Assembly (NCBI GenBank): GCA_024278765.1
Contig: JAJRSM010000089.1
Span: 1-34,176, forward strand
Direction: 5' to 3'
Length of the DNA: 34,176 bases
Origin: Deltaproteobacteria bacterium
GTDB lineage: Bacteria > Desulfobacterota > GWC2-55-46 > DRQE01
This document shows, one piece after another, positions 5,262 to 34,176 of this stretch. The translations under genes were made by a program, and so were the position numbers. The first letter of the stretch is position 1, and every line of letters begins with the position of its first letter. The notes below the pieces were generated by a model. It was not told the DNA's origin. It worked only from the letters and a program-made list of their open reading frames with translations, and searched no databases.

Positions 5262-6062
5262 ATGACTAAGAAAAAGAGTTTTGTTAGCTTCCTCGCCATC
5301 TTCGCACTGGCACTCCTGATAGGATTTACAACATATCAGAGTTCAGAGGCAGCCAGTAAAAAAAGTGCCGGAGACAGTGCACCAAAAAAAGCCTCACCGC
5401 AATGGAGCTATAGCGGCAAAGGCGGCCCGTCACACTGGGGATCGCTCAAGGCAGAGTACACGGCCTGCAGTAAGGGCACAAGACAATCACCAATAAATAT
5501 CAGCAAGGCATTGGGCACAGAGCTTGGCCCGCTTAAATTTAAATACAGAAAATCACTGAGCCTTACAATCCTCAACAACGGCCATGCCATCCAGATAAAC
5601 CAGAGAAAAGGCAGCGTCCTGCACCTGGACGGAACCGAATATGATCTACTGCAGATCCACTTTCACTCACCAAGCGAGCATACCATTGACAACAAATCCT
5701 ATCCAATGGAAGCACACTTTGTACACAGGGACAAAGACGGCAACCTAGCCGTTGTGGGTCTAATGATTGGGGTCGGTAGCCATAACACAGCCCTAGATAC
5801 TATCTGGCCTGTACTACCAAAGACAAAGAGCAAAGCAAAACTCAACATAAAATATGAAATCGCAAAACTTCTACCAGCTGGTAAATCCTATTACAGGTAC
5901 GCAGGCTCTCTTACCACACCGCCATGCACGGAAAGCGTAACATGGCTCGTCCTTAAAGACACAATCGAGATATCAAAGGACCAGTTAAAGAGTTACAGAA
6001 ATATTCTCAACAAAACAAACAGACCTATACAGAAACGTAATAACCGTCTGATACTCGACTAG
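5262..6062 (+). CDS. Periplasmic alpha-class carbonic anhydrase
   Basis: It interconverts CO2 and bicarbonate with a zinc ion held by three histidines. A signal peptide is visible (lysines at 3-5, hydrophobic 8-22, a likely cut near SSEA-A), so the enzyme is exported. Zinc ligands are His133 and His135 in QIHFHSPSEH and His152 in MEAHFVH, the order of alpha-class enzymes. 'SPINI' and 'TTPPCTESVTW' are the other class signatures. At 266 residues it has the usual length. The ATG follows AAGGAGA at good spacing. It is a single-gene unit: a 150-base leader precedes it and an intrinsic terminator follows. It could serve CO2 capture or pH control; the neighbours do not decide this. Confidence 0.93.
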   Translation: MTKKKSFVSFLAIFALALLIGFTTYQSSEAASKKSAGDSAPKKASPQWSYSGKGGPSHWGSLKAEYTACSKGTRQSPINISKALGTELGPLKFKYRKSLSLTILNNGHAIQINQRKGSVLHLDGTEYDLLQIHFHSPSEHTIDNKSYPMEAHFVHRDKDGNLAVVGLMIGVGSHNTALDTIWPVLPKTKSKAKLNIKYEIAKLLPAGKSYYRYAGSLTTPPCTESVTWLVLKDTIEISKDQLKSYRNILNKTNRPIQKRNNRLILD

Positions 6063-6841: not shown

Positions 6842-9517
6842 ATGGACTATAAAGATACCTTAAACCTCCCCCAGACCGATTTGCAGATGAAGGCCAACCT
6901 GCCTAGGCGAGAGCCGGAGATGATTAAACAGTGGGAAGAAACCGAACTATATACAAAGATAAAGGCCGCAGGGAAAGGAAGGACAACCTTTACGCTGCAC
7001 GACGGCCCGCCCTATGCCAACGGCAATATCCACATAGGCCATGCCCTCAATAAAGTACTAAAAGATATCGTCTTAAAGAGCCGCTTTATGTCAGGCTACG
7101 GCGTAGACTACGTACCTGGCTGGGATTGCCACGGCCTGCCAATAGAGTTGCAGGTCGAAAAAAACCTGGGCAAAAAGAAAGAAGGCCTCTCTAAGGTTGA
7201 TATACGCAAGGAATGCCGCGACTACGCCGCAAAGTTCGTGGATATCCAAAGGGATGACTTTAAACGTCTCGGAATCTTTGGCAGCTGGGACGAGCCCTAC
7301 CTTACGATGAACTTTGGCTATCAGGCAGCCATCCTAAAAGAACTCGCGCGCGTAAGCAGCGAGGGCCTTATCTATAAAGGCAAAAAACCCGTACACTGGT
7401 GTGCTTCCTGTCGCACGGCTCTGGCAGAGGCCGAGGTCGAGCATGCCGATAAGACATCACCCACAGTATTTGTAAAGTTCAGGGTCACAGAGGCCGCCGG
7501 CAACGAGAAGCTAAAAGATGCCTACTTTGTTATCTGGACGACGACTCCGTGGACGCTTCCTGCCAATATGGCGATAGCCGTACACCCTGATCTTGAGTAT
7601 AACCTGGTAAAGACCCCGGCGGGCAACCTTATACTTAATAAAGAACTCACAGCCGCGTGCATGGAAAGTTTCGGTTACGGCAAAGGCGACTACGAGATAA
7701 CCAATAATATATGGAAGGGCAGCGAGCTAAAAGGCATAGTCTGCGACCATCCATTTATAGACAGGACATCTACCGTCTTTAACGCCGAGTTCGTTACGAC
7801 CGAGGCCGGTACGGGCTGTGTCCATATTGCTCCGGGCCACGGCCAGGACGATTATGAACTAGGGCTTGCTAACGGGCTTGATGTCTATGCCCCCGTAGAT
7901 AACGGCGGTAAGTTTACAGCCGAGTTCCCCGAGTTTCAGGGCCAGTTTGTCTTTAAGGCCAACGCCGGAATAATAGAACTTCTAAAAGAAAAAGACGCCC
8001 TTATCAGTGAAGCAACTCTCTCACATTCATACCCGCATTGCTGGCGATGTAAAAGGCCGGTAATATTCCGCGCAACCGCCCAGTGGTTTATCTCGATGAA
8101 AGAGCTTCGAGGTAAAGCCCTCAACGCAATCGGTGATGTTAAGTGGATACCGACGTGGGGCGAGCAACGCATCCGAGCTATGGTAGAGAGCCGCCCGGAC
8201 TGGTGCTTATCGCGCCAACGTGCATGGGGAGTACCCATACCCGCGCTCTCTTGCAAAGCCTGCTCTACGAGCTTTCTCGATCAAGAGCTCATGGAAAAAC
8301 TCGCCAAAGACTTTGAAAAAGAAGGCGCGGATATATGGTTTGCAAAAGAACTTTCAGAGCTACTGCCAGACGGCACGAAGTGTCCTGATTGCGACGGCAC
8401 GGACTTTGAGAAAGAGGACGATATCCTCGATGTCTGGTTTGATTCGGGCGTTAGCTTCGCAGCCGTTCTGGAGGCCAGAGCGAGCCTTTCATCACCGGCT
8501 GATCTTTACCTGGAAGGCAGCGACCAACACCGTGGCTGGTTTCAGTCCGCACTCCTGACCTCTGTCGCAACGCGCAAAGCCCCGCCCTACAAAGCCGTCC
8601 TAACGCACGGTTTTGTCGTAGACGGCAAGGGCAAAAAAATGAGTAAATCAACCGGCAACGTCGTCGCTCCTCAGAAGATCATAGACAAATACGGCGTAGA
8701 GGTCTTGCGCCTTTGGGTCTCTAGCGAGGACTACCGCAATGACCTGCGCATCTCTGACGAGATAATAAAAAGACTCTCCGAGGCCTATAGAAGGATCCGC
8801 AATACCTTCAGGTTTATACTCGGCAATATCTCGGACTTTGACCCCGAGACGCAGAGCGTAGACTATAAAGACCTGAGTGAACTTGACAGGCTGACACTTC
8901 ACAGACTTACAAAGCTGACAGAACGAGTAAGAAAGGCATACGACGACTATGAGTTCCACGCTATTTTTCACTCGGTCCATAACTTCTGTAATCAAGAACT
9001 GAGTTCTTTCTACCTTGATATCCTGAAAGACCGGCTCTATACATCTGGTAAGGACTCTCCTCTTAGGCGTTCCGCTCAGACCGTTATCCACCAGGTCCTT
9101 GACCACCTCCTGCGGCTGATGGCACCGGTGCTCGTCTTTACAACCGACGAGGCATGGAAGCTCATGCCGGCAACAAAGGTCGAGAGCGTTCATCTCTCTG
9201 AGCTGCCAGAGCCAAACGCAGACTGGGTTGACGATGAGCTGGAAGAAAGATTCAAGATGCTCTTGGAGATCAAGGGCGAGGCCTCCAAAGCCCTTGAGGC
9301 GGCACGCAGAGACAAGACAATCGGTCACCCCTTGGATGCAAAGGTTATTATAGCGGCTACCGAGTTTACAGATGAAGACAGGCAAACTTTAAAAAATTCC
9401 GAGACACTATTTAAAAAAATGCTTATTGTTTCGGCCCTTGAGATTAAGGACTCTGTCGAAGGCGAAGACGTCTTTGTCTCAGAAGATATCAAAGGGCTAA
9501 AGGTGCTCGTAACATAG
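6842..9517 (+). CDS. ileS: Isoleucyl-tRNA synthetase, cut by an in-frame TAG before its C-terminal zinc domain
   Basis: It charges tRNA-Ile. The class I motifs are intact: HIGH at 64-67 (NGNIHIGHAL) and KMSKS at 599-603. The editing domain lies between them ('VIWTTTPWTLPAN') and the anticodon-binding helices follow. The frame stops at TAG 9515-9517 after 891 residues. Reading on in the same frame without a gap gives 34 more codons that encode the family's C-terminal zinc finger (KCERCW ... LCTRC), ending in TGA at 9620-9622, which overlaps the lspA start. The gene therefore carries a premature amber codon at a position where homologs commonly have lysine. The zinc domain is needed for charging in E. 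coli IleRS. Sequencing error, suppression or genuine loss are all open. Confidence 0.95.
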   Translation: MDYKDTLNLPQTDLQMKANLPRREPEMIKQWEETELYTKIKAAGKGRTTFTLHDGPPYANGNIHIGHALNKVLKDIVLKSRFMSGYGVDYVPGWDCHGLPIELQVEKNLGKKKEGLSKVDIRKECRDYAAKFVDIQRDDFKRLGIFGSWDEPYLTMNFGYQAAILKELARVSSEGLIYKGKKPVHWCASCRTALAEAEVEHADKTSPTVFVKFRVTEAAGNEKLKDAYFVIWTTTPWTLPANMAIAVHPDLEYNLVKTPAGNLILNKELTAACMESFGYGKGDYEITNNIWKGSELKGIVCDHPFIDRTSTVFNAEFVTTEAGTGCVHIAPGHGQDDYELGLANGLDVYAPVDNGGKFTAEFPEFQGQFVFKANAGIIELLKEKDALISEATLSHSYPHCWRCKRPVIFRATAQWFISMKELRGKALNAIGDVKWIPTWGEQRIRAMVESRPDWCLSRQRAWGVPIPALSCKACSTSFLDQELMEKLAKDFEKEGADIWFAKELSELLPDGTKCPDCDGTDFEKEDDILDVWFDSGVSFAAVLEARASLSSPADLYLEGSDQHRGWFQSALLTSVATRKAPPYKAVLTHGFVVDGKGKKMSKSTGNVVAPQKIIDKYGVEVLRLWVSSEDYRNDLRISDEIIKRLSEAYRRIRNTFRFILGNISDFDPETQSVDYKDLSELDRLTLHRLTKLTERVRKAYDDYEFHAIFHSVHNFCNQELSSFYLDILKDRLYTSGKDSPLRRSAQTVIHQVLDHLLRLMAPVLVFTTDEAWKLMPATKVESVHLSELPEPNADWVDDELEERFKMLLEIKGEASKALEAARRDKTIGHPLDAKVIIAATEFTDEDRQTLKNSETLFKKMLIVSALEIKDSVEGEDVFVSEDIKGLKVLVT

Positions 9518-28266: not shown

Positions 28267-28780
28267 CTTTTTACGTCTATACCTCTAACCCGATAATAAA
28301 TATAAAAACTCTCCTTACCTATTTAAGCAGAGAAGAGAGAAAAACACCATATATAATTTATAATTTTAACCGCCATTAATGGCCCTGTCGTCACAAGTGA
28401 TAGCTCTTTTGAATCACCTCTGATAACCCAACAGCCGCCTGTGATGCCCTGGCTTTCTATTAATATTCTATCGGCTGGGAAAGAGGAAAGCTGAAAGAGA
28501 AAAAAAGATAAATATAAAAAGGAATAGAAGCATTGTAGTGCTCCTATCCCTTTTAAATTTTATGCCTCTTTTGATATTTTTTAGCACAATGGAAGGTTGC
28601 GGTTTAAATTTACTTACCTGGCGCCTCATAACGAGTCATAGTAGTTCTATCGATTAACGATATTCCTTATTAACCAATTATACAGTCACTAAACTCCGGC
28701 GCGAGATACCGTAAACCAACAGATTCAAGGTTTTAATCTTGTGTTTAGCTCGTGGCTTTAGTATCATTTACCTTCGCACC
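28267..28780. other. Intergenic region, AT-rich, no gene recognised
   Basis: About 510 bases between the permease and the tracrRNA gene. No frame with a convincing protein and no tRNA or known RNA fold is visible. It contains a terminator-like hairpin for leftward transcription near 28517-28554 (listed separately). The permease promoter should lie near 28280-28370, where AT-rich -10-like sequences are too many to choose between. Confidence 0.5.
28517..28554 (-). terminator. Intrinsic-terminator-like hairpin for leftward transcription
   Basis: On the minus strand a 16-bp stem (28539-28554 with 28517-28532) pairs fully if three G-U pairs are allowed. The loop is 6 bases, and TTTTTATATTTATC and a T7 run follow. 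On the plus strand the same three pairs are A-C mismatches, so the minus direction is favoured. It may be a backup terminator for tracrRNA read-through or end an unidentified small RNA. Confidence 0.55.
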
Positions 28781-28815
28781 AAAAAAACAGCCCCTGCCGA
28801 AAAAACGACAGAGGC
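28781..28815 (-). terminator. Intrinsic terminator of the tracrRNA
   Basis: On minus, the 10-bp stem GCCUCUGUCG/CGGCAGGGGC (28815-28806 with 28799-28790, two G-U pairs) has a U6 loop and is followed by TGTTTTTTT (28789-28781). Confidence 0.88.
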
Positions 28816-28907
28816 CAAAGGTTTACCCTCATTAAAGGGATATATCCTGCGAAGTTTTTCAAACTCCATTATTATGGAAAGCAAGGCAGGCATTTGTTTA
28901 GTATAGT
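28781..28907 (-). ncRNA. tracrRNA of the type II-C CRISPR-Cas system
   Basis: Transcribed leftward, away from cas9. The 5' part (28907 down to about 28871) is an anti-repeat. Its first 21 bases pair with the last 21 bases of the repeat with one G-U pair. A bulged middle follows, where UUGC can pair GCGG. Then CCAUAAU pairs all seven first bases of the repeat (GUUGUGG) using two G-U pairs. This lower stem, bulge and upper stem is the standard crRNA:tracrRNA duplex. Downstream come a short hairpin AGUUU-GAA-AAACU, a GGAUAUAUCC palindrome, a CCCUU/GAGGG stem, and a terminal 10-bp terminator hairpin. Predicted length is about 120-127 bases. It directly fits the array and cas9 of this locus. Confidence 0.9.
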
Positions 28908-28913
28908 GCCGTC

Positions 28914-28942
28914 ATATTAACCACCAATGACATCTTTGTCAA
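28914..28942 (-). promoter_or_regulatory. Sigma70-type promoter of the tracrRNA
   Basis: On minus, a perfect -35 TTGACA (28942-28937) is followed after 17 bases by TAATAT (28919-28914). The expected start is about 28907, exactly the first base of the anti-repeat. The -35 box touches the AAGGAG ribosome site of cas9 on the other strand. Confidence 0.8.
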
Positions 28943-28953
28943 GGAGAAAATCA

Positions 28954-31900
28954 ATGCCTGATAAAAATGGTAAAAAAGAAGTAATACTCGGACTGGATCT
29001 CGGCACGGCCTCGATTGGCTGGGTAAAATTAGAAAAAGACAAGTACAAAAGACCTAAAAGAATTATTGATATTGGCACAAGAATTTTCAAAGAGATGTTA
29101 GAAACAGGTACATCTGAAGCAAAACGCGAAACAAAAAACAAAAACCGCAGAGAAAAACGAGGCGCACGCAAGCTTAACCGCCGCTTCAAAGCACGCCGCA
29201 ATGACCTTGTAAATATATTGCTTGAATACGGACTGCTCCCTGAATCAATAAAGGACAAGACAGATCGAGAAAAAATCATAAATGAAATCGGCGAACCATT
29301 TGATCTGCGATACAAAGGACTTGACGAACCACTAACCCCACATCAATTTGGACGAATACTACTTCAAATAATGAAGCGTAGAGGATACAGAAGCAATCGT
29401 GGAGCAAAATACATTGATTTAATGGAACTGCCAGAAGTTATAAAACTAAAACAAGCAGAAGCCAATACCCAAGATGATATTAAAAATACCGTAAAGGGTA
29501 CAGATGAATATAAAAAACTCAAAAAAGTACTTGGCAAAATACAACTACTAGAACGTGAATTAAAAAACATAAATAAGGATAAAAAAGAAACTGACAAGGG
29601 ATACACAACCCTTGGATCTTTTATCTATAAAACTTCCAAAGAAAACGGACACAAACCACGCAGAATAACCAATCTAAAGTCTGGCGAAGATGAACTCTTT
29701 GCTACCAGACAGATGTATGAAGACGAGTTCAAACTGCTCTGGGAAGAACAAAAAAAACACCTTCCTCTCAATAGTGAGATGAAAGAAAAAATACATAGGA
29801 CGATATTCCGCCAGCTTCCTCTAAAACTACAGAAAAACCTAGTGGGAAAATGTTCTTTTGAATTTGCAAAAAAACGCGCACACAAGGCACGTTTAGAGGC
29901 CCAGGAATTCAGAATACTGCAAGAACTTAATGACCTTAGAATTGAAAAGCATGGAACACACGAGGCTACGCCTCTAACAATAGATCAACGACAATTACTG
30001 CTGGATGCCCTTGACGACCCTAACATGTTAAATCAGAGCAATACGCTTTCATGGACAAAGGTCAAAGATATACTTAATCTCAACAATAAAGATAAATTTA
30101 ATATGCAAAGAACATCTAAAAATGACCTTCATGGCAACAAGACCCATCTAGCTTTGCTTAAGACCATACCGAAAAGATGGGCTGAGTTTAAATTACCTGA
30201 GAAAATCGCACTGGTAGAAGACCTGCTAACAATACATGACAAAAAAGACCTTTTTTTGCGCCTTTTCAACAAAGACAAACCATGGAGGTTCGACACAAAA
30301 GAAGCCTACAGCCTCGCCACACTGGAACTGGAATCGGGGTATATGAAACATTGCCTACAAGTAATACGCAGACTATTGGATCATATGCAACTTGATGAAA
30401 ACAAAAAAGGGTTAGACTACCATGACGCCTGCCAAAAGGCAGGCTACATGAGAAAAGACCAAAAAATCATATCTAAAAAAACTCAACTGGACGCGCCGCC
30501 TTATGTAGCAAACCCGCGCGTACAGAAAGCATTGTTTGAAGTACACAAGCTGGTCAACAAACTTATGCTCGACAAAAAAGACCCTATAACGGCTATTCAC
30601 ATAGAACTTGCACGCGACATGAAGACCTCCAAAGCCCATCGCATAAAGACACAAGCGCAGCAATATGAAAATCGAAAACGCAACAATGAGGGCACCAAAG
30701 AATTGACCAGAATGGCCGAAGAACATCCTGATTTACATATAAGGCCAGACCATCACGATGACATCTTGAAGTACAAGCTTTGGCAAGAATTAGGCACACC
30801 AGCCACCTGTCCTTACAGCCTTAAAACACTTGCGCCACACCAGCTTTTCAACGGTGATGTTCAAATCGATCACATATACCCCCGAAGCCGTTCATGCGAC
30901 AATAGCTACGGAAATAAAATCCTTTGCTTTACTTTAAAAAATAAAGAAAAAGGCAACAAAACACCCTTCGAACAATGGGGAGGCACAGAAAAGTTTCAAG
31001 AAATTTTGCGTCACCTTGAAGGACAGGTCAAGCTTAAGGTTTTTCCGCAAAACAAGCTGGATAAAATAAAAAATCCTGACTTCAATGCAAAGGACTTTGT
31101 TGAACGACAACTCAATGAAACACGCTATATTTGTATAATAGTCAAAAACTACCTCGAACAACTTGGCATACCCGTGCAGGTTACAACAGGTCAGGCTACC
31201 GCAGAGATACGGCACCTGCTTGGACTAAATAACATACTACCCAAACCACCTGTAGAAGACGAAATAGATAATACAAAAAAGAAAAAACGCGTTGACCACC
31301 GCCACCACGCGATTGATGCGCTGGTAACGGCCCTTACCGACAGGAAATTATTCAAAGACCTTCAAGAGCGTTATCGACATCGGGAGCAAAACCACCAGTG
31401 GCCTGAAAAAAGACTTAAGAGCATATGGAGTTGGAAGACCCTGCGCGAAGACACGCAAAAAGCCCTTATGAACTCAGTAGTATCTCACAATGTCAATAGA
31501 AAAATACACGGCGCATTGCACAAAGATATGCCTTTTGGCAGATCATATTACCTTGAAGATATTAAAGTTGAAAAAGTTACAAAAGAAATAAAAGACTTAA
31601 TAAAGTCTAACCCTGAAAAACCAGACAGCCAGAGCTGGATAGTAAACAGCCACACAAGAAAATTCCTGCAATCATGGTTAAAAGAACAAGAAGCATCAAA
31701 AAAGAAAATTTCTTTTGAACTACCTGTAAAGGCCGATGGCACACCAATAAAGACCATAAAGATTGCGCACCGTTGTTACGTAAAAAGAAAGCCGGTAAAA
31801 GATGTTTTACAATACGTAAACAATCCGGTCGGGGGGAAAACATGGATAGTAGATGAAGGTATCCGGCATATCTTAAGCGACTGGATGAGACTGCACAAAA

Positions 31901-32049
31901 ACAATGACAATGAATTAAAAGAAAGTCCGCCTTTAATGCCTAATAATAAATCGTCAAAACAAAATCCTATTAAAACCGTTAGAGTCGCCAGTAAATTCGG
32001 AGCGTCATCCATAAAAAGCTTTAAGAACAGTCCTTATCCAATACTATGA
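28954..32049 (+). CDS. cas9: CRISPR-associated endonuclease Cas9 (type II-C), frame broken before its PAM-interacting domain
   Basis: The start at 28954 is preceded by AAGGAG at 28941; an in-frame ATG at 28927 lacks a site. Nuclease residues are intact: RuvC Asp15 (ILGLDLGTASIGW), Glu551 (HIELARDM), His785 and Asp788 (RHHAIDAL); HNH His640 and Asn663 (QIDHIYPRSRSCDNSYGNK). An arginine-rich bridge helix lies near 62-85 (KNRREKRGARKLNRRFKARR). This part is 1031 residues and ends in the C-terminal domain just after PIKTVRVASKFG (1005-1016). The Cas9 sequence then continues in the +1 frame (next entry), giving about 1167 residues when joined, normal for II-C. Base composition is clearly AT-richer than cas1 and cas2. 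As it stands the product would lack PAM recognition and be inactive on DNA. Confidence 0.95.
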   Translation: MPDKNGKKEVILGLDLGTASIGWVKLEKDKYKRPKRIIDIGTRIFKEMLETGTSEAKRETKNKNRREKRGARKLNRRFKARRNDLVNILLEYGLLPESIKDKTDREKIINEIGEPFDLRYKGLDEPLTPHQFGRILLQIMKRRGYRSNRGAKYIDLMELPEVIKLKQAEANTQDDIKNTVKGTDEYKKLKKVLGKIQLLERELKNINKDKKETDKGYTTLGSFIYKTSKENGHKPRRITNLKSGEDELFATRQMYEDEFKLLWEEQKKHLPLNSEMKEKIHRTIFRQLPLKLQKNLVGKCSFEFAKKRAHKARLEAQEFRILQELNDLRIEKHGTHEATPLTIDQRQLLLDALDDPNMLNQSNTLSWTKVKDILNLNNKDKFNMQRTSKNDLHGNKTHLALLKTIPKRWAEFKLPEKIALVEDLLTIHDKKDLFLRLFNKDKPWRFDTKEAYSLATLELESGYMKHCLQVIRRLLDHMQLDENKKGLDYHDACQKAGYMRKDQKIISKKTQLDAPPYVANPRVQKALFEVHKLVNKLMLDKKDPITAIHIELARDMKTSKAHRIKTQAQQYENRKRNNEGTKELTRMAEEHPDLHIRPDHHDDILKYKLWQELGTPATCPYSLKTLAPHQLFNGDVQIDHIYPRSRSCDNSYGNKILCFTLKNKEKGNKTPFEQWGGTEKFQEILRHLEGQVKLKVFPQNKLDKIKNPDFNAKDFVERQLNETRYICIIVKNYLEQLGIPVQVTTGQATAEIRHLLGLNNILPKPPVEDEIDNTKKKKRVDHRHHAIDALVTALTDRKLFKDLQERYRHREQNHQWPEKRLKSIWSWKTLREDTQKALMNSVVSHNVNRKIHGALHKDMPFGRSYYLEDIKVEKVTKEIKDLIKSNPEKPDSQSWIVNSHTRKFLQSWLKEQEASKKKISFELPVKADGTPIKTIKIAHRCYVKRKPVKDVLQYVNNPVGGKTWIVDEGIRHILSDWMRLHKNNDNELKESPPLMPNNKSSKQNPIKTVRVASKFGASSIKSFKNSPYPIL

Positions 32050-32122
32050 CCTGCAAAGCAACCATCATGTATCAATATTTAAGCACAAAATAAATAATAA
32101 AAGAAAAGGGCTAGTCACCACT

Positions 32123-32458
32123 ATGGTAAACGCAGCTTCAAGTAAAAAAATAGGGATCATCAAGAGAACTCATCCCCATCTTGACCCGACTCAATGGGAT
32201 TTTGAAATGTTCTTATGCGTGGACGACATGGTTCTATGGGATAGCGAAGACCCACGGTTTATCAAAGAAGGGCACTGCCTCTTAGGCGAGCCTATCTACA
32301 GGGTACAAAAAATATCCAAGTCAATCACATTTAGACATCATTCTGTTTCACCAGCCGACAAGACCGACAAGCGTGGCATGCTTGAATGTTCACCAAGCAC
32401 TTTAAAATGCAAAAAAATAATAATGAACGTAATGGGTGGCTATACGGTGGAATCATGA
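32123..32458 (+). CDS. cas9: Cas9 C-terminal PAM-interacting domain, separated by a frameshift
   Basis: This frame looks like a small gene between cas9 and cas1 (111 residues from ATG 32123) but is better read as the end of Cas9. The same frame is open upstream to 32015 and there encodes YYDLQSNHHVSIFKHK, which matches the (G/S)NHH-hydrophobic-IY/F motif of II-C Cas9 C-terminal domains. Further on, FEMFLCVDDMVLW matches the 'F.fsL..gDlV' element, and IYRVQKISKSITFRHH is the typical Cas9 'yRVqkis...frhh' strand pair. The ending IIMNVMGGYTV fits 'V.VdplGr'. Its TGA overlaps the cas1 ATG (ATGA). The ATG at 32123 has only a distant AAAAGGG, so separate translation is doubtful but not excluded. 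Confidence 0.82.
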   Translation: MVNAASSKKIGIIKRTHPHLDPTQWDFEMFLCVDDMVLWDSEDPRFIKEGHCLLGEPIYRVQKISKSITFRHHSVSPADKTDKRGMLECSPSTLKCKKIIMNVMGGYTVES

Positions 32459-33348
32459 TTAAGCGCATTGTAGAGATAAGCAGCGAGGCGCATATATGTC
32501 ACAAGAATCGCCAGCTCGTTGTACGTCAGATCGACAGAGAGGACGCTCAGGTCCCTATCGAGGATCTGGGTGTGTTAGTCCTTAACGACCCGTCTATCAC
32601 GATGAGCCAGCGCATAATGGCAGAGCTTGCTAGTGCCAATGTCGCTGTTATTCTATGCGACAAAAAAAGACTGCCTGTTGCGACCCTTACGCCAATTGAG
32701 GGAAATACGCTACACACAAAGACGCTGGCCATGCAGGTGCAGATAAAAGAGACAACAAAAAAACGCCTATGGAAATCGATCATTCAGGCAAAGGTCAGGG
32801 CACAGGCCGGGGCACTAGATGCCGCCCATATCAACAGCGGCCCGCTCCGTGCCTTCGCGGAAAAAGTAAAGACAGGAGACACGACCAATATAGAGGCGCA
32901 GGCAGCACGCGTCTACTGGCAGCGGCTCTTTGGCAAAGACTTTCGGCGTGATCGCTACGGCCAGGGGCCGAACGCCCTGCTTAATTACGGGTATACCCTT
33001 ATGCGTTCTACCGTTGCAAGGGCAGTGCTCGGCGCAGGGTTTCATCCGGCACTCGGCCTGCACCACCGCAACCAGTACAACAGCTTCTGCCTCGCTGACG
33101 ACCTGATAGAGCCGCTTCGCCCGGCAGTAGATCTGCACATCTATAGACTCACCAACAAAGGCAAAAACATCCCCGATATCTCGCCAGAGTCAAAGCGCGC
33201 GCTCCTTGAGGTCCTTACCTTTAACTTTAAAATCAACGGACAGGGTTTGCCGCTTACAGCGGCCCTTGAACGGTATATGGCAACGGTACGTCGCGTTATG
33301 AGCGAAGAACAAAGGAATATAAAAAAAGCGGAGTTTCCGATAAGATGA
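32455..33348 (+). CDS. cas1: CRISPR adaptation integrase Cas1 (type II)
   Basis: 297 residues from ATG 32455, which overlaps the stop of the Cas9 tail; MIKRIVEIS is the usual Cas1 start, and a longer frame from 32386 is not needed. It integrates spacers together with Cas2. Metal-binding residues are visible: Glu147 (NIEAQAARVYW), His203 or His204 (GLHHRNQYNSF) and Glu219 (ADDLIEPLRPAVD), matching the Glu/His/Glu set of type II Cas1. GPNALLNYGYTLMRS is a family motif. Ribosome site GGTGG is 5 bases upstream. Base composition is GC-rich like the chromosomal genes, in contrast to cas9. Confidence 0.97.
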   Translation: MIKRIVEISSEAHICHKNRQLVVRQIDREDAQVPIEDLGVLVLNDPSITMSQRIMAELASANVAVILCDKKRLPVATLTPIEGNTLHTKTLAMQVQIKETTKKRLWKSIIQAKVRAQAGALDAAHINSGPLRAFAEKVKTGDTTNIEAQAARVYWQRLFGKDFRRDRYGQGPNALLNYGYTLMRSTVARAVLGAGFHPALGLHHRNQYNSFCLADDLIEPLRPAVDLHIYRLTNKGKNIPDISPESKRALLEVLTFNFKINGQGLPLTAALERYMATVRRVMSEEQRNIKKAEFPIR

Positions 33349-33674
33349 GCTTTGGAGGGTTCAGGAGCATGTGGGTACTGACTATGTTCGACCTGCCGAC
33401 AGATACAAAGCAGGCAAGAAGGGACTACCACGACTTCCGGCAAGGGCTGCTCAGGGACGGCTTTAAGATGATGCAGTATTCGGTCTACGCGCGCCACGCC
33501 CCGAGTCAAGAGCGGGCCGTAATACACGAGAAACGCGTACAGGCCAACCTGCCGCCAGACGGCGAGGTACGGATAATAAGGATCACCGATAAGCAATTCG
33601 AGAATATGAAGATATTTTACGGAAAGATGCGCAAGGCAGAGAAAAAAGCGCCCGAACAGATCACTTTATTCTGA
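33345..33674 (+). CDS. cas2: CRISPR adaptation protein Cas2
   Basis: 109 residues with the ferredoxin-like start WVLTMFDLPTDTKQARRDY, then DGFKMMQYSVYAR and GEVRIIRITDKQFENM, all typical of type II Cas2. Cas2 forms the central dimer of the Cas1-Cas2 integrase. The ATG overlaps the cas1 stop (ATGA). The last codons form the left arm of a terminator hairpin. Confidence 0.96.
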   Translation: MSFGGFRSMWVLTMFDLPTDTKQARRDYHDFRQGLLRDGFKMMQYSVYARHAPSQERAVIHEKRVQANLPPDGEVRIIRITDKQFENMKIFYGKMRKAEKKAPEQITLF

Positions 33675-33722: not shown

Positions 33723-33925
33723 ACTATACCAAACAAATGCCTGTCCGCAAACCACAACTGGCGAGCGTTACGCCATCCGAACCAGTAAACTATACCAAAC
33801 AAATGCCTGTCCGCAAACCACAACCACCGCTGCTGCGCCTGTTCCCGGACGCCGACTATACCAAACAAATGCCTGTCCGCAAACCACAACCGCCCTTTAT
33901 GTCATCAAGTAGAGACATACACTAT
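33723..33925 (-). CRISPR. Type II-C CRISPR array, three full repeats, fourth cut by an IS
   Basis: Three identical 36-base repeats lie at 33723-33758, 33789-33824 and 33855-33890. The 30-base spacers are 33759-33788, 33825-33854 and 33891-33920. A fourth repeat begins at 33921 (ACTAT) and is broken by an IS3-family end. Read on minus the repeat begins GTTGTGGTTTGCGG and ends GGTATAGT, the II-C form, and is complementary to the tracrRNA anti-repeat only in this orientation, so the crRNAs must be made leftward. Each repeat contains an extended -10 (TGGTATAGT) with TTGCGG 16 bases upstream, so every spacer can have its own promoter. I see no match of the spacers inside this window. More units may lie beyond the IS elements. 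Confidence 0.96.
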
Positions 33926-34035
33926 GGACTTCCCTCAGTTTAGTAGACAACTACCCTTTACCTGATGAAGCCATTTCAAAGTCATGCGGGCTCAGCTGAC
34001 CGAGGTAGCTGTGACGCCGGGTTTTGTTGTAAAAG
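33925..34035 (-). mobile_element. IS3-family element, right end, interrupted
   Basis: A terminal inverted repeat (33925-33950, starting TGGACTTCCC) is followed by the reverse-strand end of an orfB transposase. The element runs rightward and is cut at 34036 by a second IS3-family end. It sits inside the fourth CRISPR repeat. The rest of the element and any target duplication lie outside the window. Confidence 0.88.
33951..34034 (-). pseudogene. IS3-family orfB transposase, last 27 codons
   Basis: The minus-strand translation FYNKTRRHSYLGQLSPHDFE followed by MASSGKG and TAG is the standard C-terminal end of IS3-group DDE transposases (Y-N-x-x-R-x-H-x-x-L-G-x-x-x-P-x-x-F-E). The upstream part is separated by the second IS at 34036. 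Confidence 0.9.
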
Positions 34036-34176
34036 TGGACTTCCCCCGCTTTAGTAGACACATTTGATGGTACAATTGCAAACAAACGGAGGTGTGTCTA
34101 TGTCCAATCATAGGTATACAGAAGAGTTTAAGCAAGAGGCGGTAAAACAGGTGACAGAGCGCGGTCATTCTGTCAG
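34036..34176 (+). mobile_element. Second IS3-family element, left end (partial)
   Basis: A terminal inverted repeat (34036-34061) matches the one at 33925-33950 at 22 of 26 positions, with the same TGGACTTCCC start and TTTAGTAGACA core. The element is oriented with its transposase on plus and runs off the window. It appears inserted into the orfB of the first element, in opposite orientation. Confidence 0.88.
34100..34176 (+). CDS. IS3-family orfA (transposase helix-turn-helix subunit), partial
   Basis: It starts at ATG 34100, with GGAGGTG 5 bases upstream. The visible 25 residues, MSNHRYTEEFKQEAVKQVTE and then RGHSV, are the classic IS3-family OrfA start ('YTEEFK.EAVKqv.erG.sv'). It runs past the window end. 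OrfA normally provides DNA binding and is fused to OrfB by frameshifting. Confidence 0.93.
   Translation, partial: MSNHRYTEEFKQEAVKQVTERGHSV

Follow-up and report, generated by a model that had tools for sequence, protein, structure and literature searches.

In a deltaproteobacterial CRISPR locus, the open reading frame between cas9 and cas1 encodes the C-terminal domain of the same Cas9

The open reading frame that precedes cas1 in the window (the whole analysed stretch of 34,176 nucleotides) is the C-terminal (WED/PAM-interacting) domain of the Cas9 encoded just upstream, read in the +1 frame. Very probably, this is a single type II-C cas9 gene broken by a one-base frameshift, which is either a recent mutation or an error in the consensus sequence. 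In the proposed arrangement, the shift would lie at about 32034-32041, with some 420 bases of the gene still to follow, and the upstream frame would encode the nuclease lobes and the downstream +1 frame the C-terminal domain. As sequenced, translation would end after residue 1031, and the resulting Cas9 would be without its PAM-reading part and the end of the repeat:anti-repeat wedge. Judging from the role of this domain in type II-C Cas9 proteins of known structure, the truncated Cas9 should be dead for interference and probably also for Cas9-dependent spacer choice.

Reading frames of cas9 and composition of the locus

The first cas9 frame runs on the forward strand from the ATG at 28954, which is preceded by AAGGAG at 28941-28946, to the TGA at 32047-32049, as read from the list of open reading frames and its translation. 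Its product of 1031 residues scored 520 bits against the NCBIfam profile cas_Csn1 (positions 2-956 of 1070) and matched the Pfam families HNH_4, RuvC_III and Cas9_a. The domains are, in order, RuvC-I, REC, RuvC-II, HNH, RuvC-III and the first part of the WED region, after which the TGA is reached. The RuvC and HNH catalytic residues by which a Cas9 is recognized (D15, E551, H640, N654, H785 and D788) are intact, as had been claimed in the preliminary description, and match 90-91 of 91 homologs. The C-terminal WED/PAM-interacting domain, which belongs to the same polypeptide in a Cas9, is encoded here in the +1 frame past the stop.

Past PIKTVRVASKFG, which ends at 32001, frame 1 continues as ASSIKSFKNSPYPIL. 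In the next frame, a TAA occupies 32012-32014, and the open stretch that follows it (32015-32458, forward strand) contains YYDLQSNHHVSIFKHK, FEMFLCVDDMVLW and IYRVQKISKSITFRHH. The joined Cas9 has 1167 residues, and the TGA of the second frame (32456-32458) overlaps the cas1 ATG at 32455. Translation confirmed the frame ends and peptides given in the preliminary description, and its estimates of the joined length and of the overlap were accurate. The "111-residue accessory gene" (32123-32458, forward strand) is the C-terminal frame read from its earliest ATG, a start that lies inside the domain.

Downstream on the same strand are cas1 (32455-33348; PF01867, E = 9e-31), cas2 (33345-33674; PF09827, E = 4e-17, and TIGR01573) and a CRISPR array (33723-33890) with three identical 36-bp repeats, at 33723, 33789 and 33855, and two 30-bp spacers (33759-33788 and 33825-33854). 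A candidate tracrRNA was located upstream of cas9 on the reverse strand (28780-28910), with an anti-repeat at 28884-28907 that agrees in 21 of 24 bases (15 at the next best place) and with a hairpin and T-run terminator at about 28815-28779. The region 28954-33674 contains only cas9, cas1 and cas2, without csn2 or cas4, and is followed by the array; this gene set, the array of identical repeats and the putative anti-repeat near cas9 are those of type II-C. The array repeat has no copies elsewhere in the assembly, and variants of it follow the cas genes in three other genomes (G029, G032 and G058). Insertion sequence (IS) DNA and the contig end come after the array, whose remainder may have been lost or may be unassembled. 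No spacer targets were found in viral contigs or elsewhere in the genome.

Identity of the second frame and position of the shift

The +1-frame fragment could be aligned over its whole length with the C-termini of 40 Cas9 proteins that are each encoded by one ORF, an agreement well outside what chance would give; the homology extends from about 32036 up to the stop. The closest C-terminus (39% identity) was that of L040, a Cas9 from the betaproteobacterial MAG NC_groundwater_1600_Pr3_B (JACRAS010000197.1). L040 shares 40% identity with the joined protein over residues 3-1161 and is likewise followed by cas1 and cas2; it differs in that both Cas9 parts lie in one uninterrupted frame through the joint. 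Seven Cas9 proteins from the same order, class and phylum, each encoded by a single ORF (L018, L019, L020, L022, L024, L038 and L039), also read through the joint, and they share the terminal elements GNNHHVEI, FVMSLxxNDMV, YRVQK and KIxVDxLG. The intact frame, which the preliminary description proposed to look for in related strains, exists in these Cas9 relatives, and the second-frame peptides that it had assigned to the C-terminal domain of II-C Cas9 are those with which intact Cas9 proteins end.

An AlphaFold2 model of the fragment, made from an alignment of 41 sequences, had a mean pLDDT of 88. In the fold search with this model, PDB ranks 1-23 were all Cas9, with no credible match below. 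The type II-C proteins CjCas9 (5x2h), CbCas9 (8iyq), Nme2Cas9 (6jfu) and iGeoCas9 (8uzb) resemble the window Cas9 in domain order and C-terminal fold; they differ from it in having no frameshift and in the low identity of their C-terminal domains to it. The cas_Csn1 score rose from 520 bits for the split protein to 532 bits for the joined one. Because the intact relatives, L040 among them, the predicted fold and the higher joined score agree, we identify the fragment as the Cas9 C-terminal domain, as the preliminary description had claimed. That description had also named the absence of a Cas9 C-terminal profile match as evidence against its claim. On this point the results are divided: the 147-residue fragment alone gave no match in Pfam, NCBIfam or PDB sequences, which we attribute to its divergence, whereas the alignment with homologs, the fold and the joined profile all indicate Cas9.

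The preliminary description placed one base too many somewhere in 31995-32047 and offered the A5 run at 32013-32017 as a candidate. To locate the shift by alignment with related Cas9 proteins, every translation with one base skipped in 31981-32049 was scored in two ways, with a profile built from 22 homologous C-termini and by comparison with 21 local stretches. The top score fell at 32037-32039 (171.6 bits), followed by 32034-32036 and 32040-32041 (169-170 bits). The local alignment at the joint, ASSIKSFKNSPYQYYDLQSNHHVSIF against ASGLVRFGNRP-QIFAKGSNHHIAIF of L040, agrees with the profile placement. The most likely position of the extra base is 32034-32041 of the forward strand. This lies within the proposed interval; the A5 run, with 165.3 bits, scored about 6 bits below the best placement and was rejected. 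The likely site is a CC or TT pair, whereas indel errors usually arise in long homopolymers. Codon-usage scoring of the shift point gave no information on the site.

Within about 90 homologous Cas9 loci, none was split at this position, and none had a free-standing C-terminal gene beside a full-length Cas9, an arrangement that the preliminary description had named as counting against its claim. The rare interruptions in these homologs lie elsewhere: near residue 651 in L045, near residue 678 in L083 and in mid-protein in L023 (genome G019). All three genes come from MAGs and carry either an in-frame stop or a frameshift.

As for the source of the locus, eight other genomes of the same family were examined and contained no recognisable relative of the window Cas9, so that the CRISPR locus was probably acquired horizontally. 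Neither plasmids (best identity 29%) nor viral contigs (30% or less) contained a close Cas9 relative, and a scan of genome contigs with the single Cas9 protein as query gave no match.

Origin of the extra base

Compared block by block with L040, the C-terminal domain was 40-42% identical; most of the protein gave 37-48%, and a single block reached 62%. Since the C-terminal identity matches that of the other blocks, there is no sign of relaxed constraint. The undiminished identity past the shift also indicates that the break, if real, is recent, and the preliminary description had judged it so. On the other side, cas1, cas2, the repeats and the candidate tracrRNA look intact; the locus has no second sign of decay, which counts against decay.

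To judge the state of the genome, 823 kb of the window's genome (G000; 2.2 Mb in 123 contigs) was compared with 977 kb of G006, a genome of the same family. Among 186 matched genes, three of G000 had one-base shifts and three had in-frame stops in conserved stretches. The shifts are in the RNase Y, protoporphyrinogen-oxidase-like and Hsp70-like genes and are, by alignment, shortened A or G runs; the stops (TAG or TGA) are in alr, a zwf-like gene and one more gene. These gene names are our reading of the sequences. The interruptions lie in L239 near 9864, in L240 near 2485 and 922, in L242 at 5842-5911, in L257 near 3600 and in L224 near 3770. Two apparent frameshifts against G006 were antisense shadow frames and were discarded.

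On the window's own contig, ileS (6842-9517) has an in-frame TAG at 9515-9517 directly ahead of its C-terminal zinc finger (KCERCW...CTRC); past the TAG, the finger is encoded without a change of frame, over 34 codons. With in-frame TAGs in ileS, alr and the zwf-like gene, the use of TAG as a sense codon was considered and rejected: TAG terminates 67 of 199 conserved genes, the genome encodes release factor 1, and no pyrrolysyl-tRNA synthetase was found above the cut-off.

The 252 bases at the right end of the window (33925-34176) match 40 places in the genome, most of them at contig ends. This segment consists of two adjoining IS ends, with the start of an IS3-like transposase at the contig end. 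The matches point to an IS burst that fragments the assembly. Taken together, the stop codons, indels and IS burst look more like a genome that is shedding genes than like homopolymer errors. Because nonsense codons accompany indels in conserved genes and the draft genome is filled with one IS, we favour, with some confidence, a recent real mutation as the cause of the shift.

Alternatively, cas9 is uninterrupted in the living organism and the extra base arose in sequencing or assembly; this is a serious possibility, although we consider it the unlikelier of the two. An error would fit the intactness of every other part, the undiminished identity past the shift and the one-base shifts that three further conserved genes of the draft have in short runs. 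Moreover, singleton frameshifts having BLAST support are expected to be mostly sequencing errors (PMC3711429). However, nonsense codons are about as frequent as shifts in this genome and would require a high substitution error rate. In addition, the contigs end in one insertion sequence, like those of a short-read assembly, where such indel errors are rare, and no long run is present at the likely site.

That a short and a full-length Cas9 are produced from one mRNA by programmed +1 frameshifting is very improbable. A +1 slip near the TGA would restore the frame, and the stop context CTA TGA C is superficially like the CTT TGA C of prfB. Yet CTA is not slippery into TAT, and a shift at the stop scores below one at 32037-32039. 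Programmed frameshifting is marked by a conserved site, a slippery codon and a stimulator; here the shift is found in no relative, and no Shine-Dalgarno-like stimulator is visible upstream.

Slighter still is the chance of a natural two-chain Cas9, whose C-terminal domain would be made separately and then re-associate. Designed split Cas9 chains can re-associate, and the ATG at 32123 has a purine stretch upstream, at 32100-32110. However, this earliest ATG is residue 37 of the fragment and, in the model, falls after the first two strands (E16-24 and E30-36) and the NHH motif; a 111-residue protein initiated there would therefore be an incomplete domain. Between the shift and 32123, the sequence is conserved within a single chain. 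A natural split Cas9 would have a separately started C-terminal protein in more than one genome, but the ATG lies inside the domain and the arrangement is absent from the approximately 90 homologs. Literature searches returned no report of a naturally split Cas9. Thus, the ranking of a two-chain Cas9 below recent breakage in the preliminary description holds. We give an equally faint chance to a naturally two-product cas9 in a lineage with a tandem-duplicated WED segment, the two products arising through frameshifting of low efficiency or through internal initiation; if true, the shorter product, which has no PAM-interacting domain, would serve a function of its own.

Finally, that 32015-32458 is a CRISPR-operon accessory gene unrelated to Cas9 has a probability close to nil: the empty library searches speak for it, but the alignment with intact Cas9 C-termini, the Cas9-only fold match and the joined profile score speak against it, and the intact relatives already refute it.

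Tandem duplication in the WED region and meaning of the frameshifted gene

The WED region of the window Cas9 contains a tandem duplication at 31528-31995 (forward strand), with unit 1 at 31528-31773 and unit 2 at 31774-31995. Comparison of the units identified the extra piece as a repeat of the WED segment next to it: the units scored 72 against each other (shuffled, 26 +/- 5), with a profile-profile E of 2e-6. The model has a repeated strand-helix-strand-helix-strand pattern in this segment, and a PDB fold search with it gave weak Cas9 matches, none of them significant. Among the approximately 90 homologs, the duplication of about 80 residues is common only to the window Cas9 and L040 (L040:5223-5786). 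The spacing from GALH to NHH is 183 residues in the joined protein, 184 in L040 and 62 to 143 in the other homologs, except for one distant viral-contig Cas9 with 185. We know of no duplicated WED segment in the structure-solved type II-C Cas9 proteins.

Broken cas9 genes are already well known. Frameshifted cas9 genes in loci whose other parts persist, as here, have been described from degraded type II systems of Mollicutes, among them that of Mycoplasma arthritidis (PMC6882279). The M. arthritidis gene differs in that its stop is at residue 394, against about 1031 here, and in that a spacer matches the host (PMC6882279), whereas neither spacer of the window matches the genome elsewhere. The window cas9 represents no new kind of Cas9, but an ordinary gene breakage of recent date or an error in the sequence. 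Its recognition keeps two mistakes out of annotation, a spurious "accessory gene" ahead of cas1 and a spuriously short Cas9. The duplicated WED segment is the one unusual thing nearby, and it might interest those who study how II-C Cas9 grips the repeat:anti-repeat duplex.
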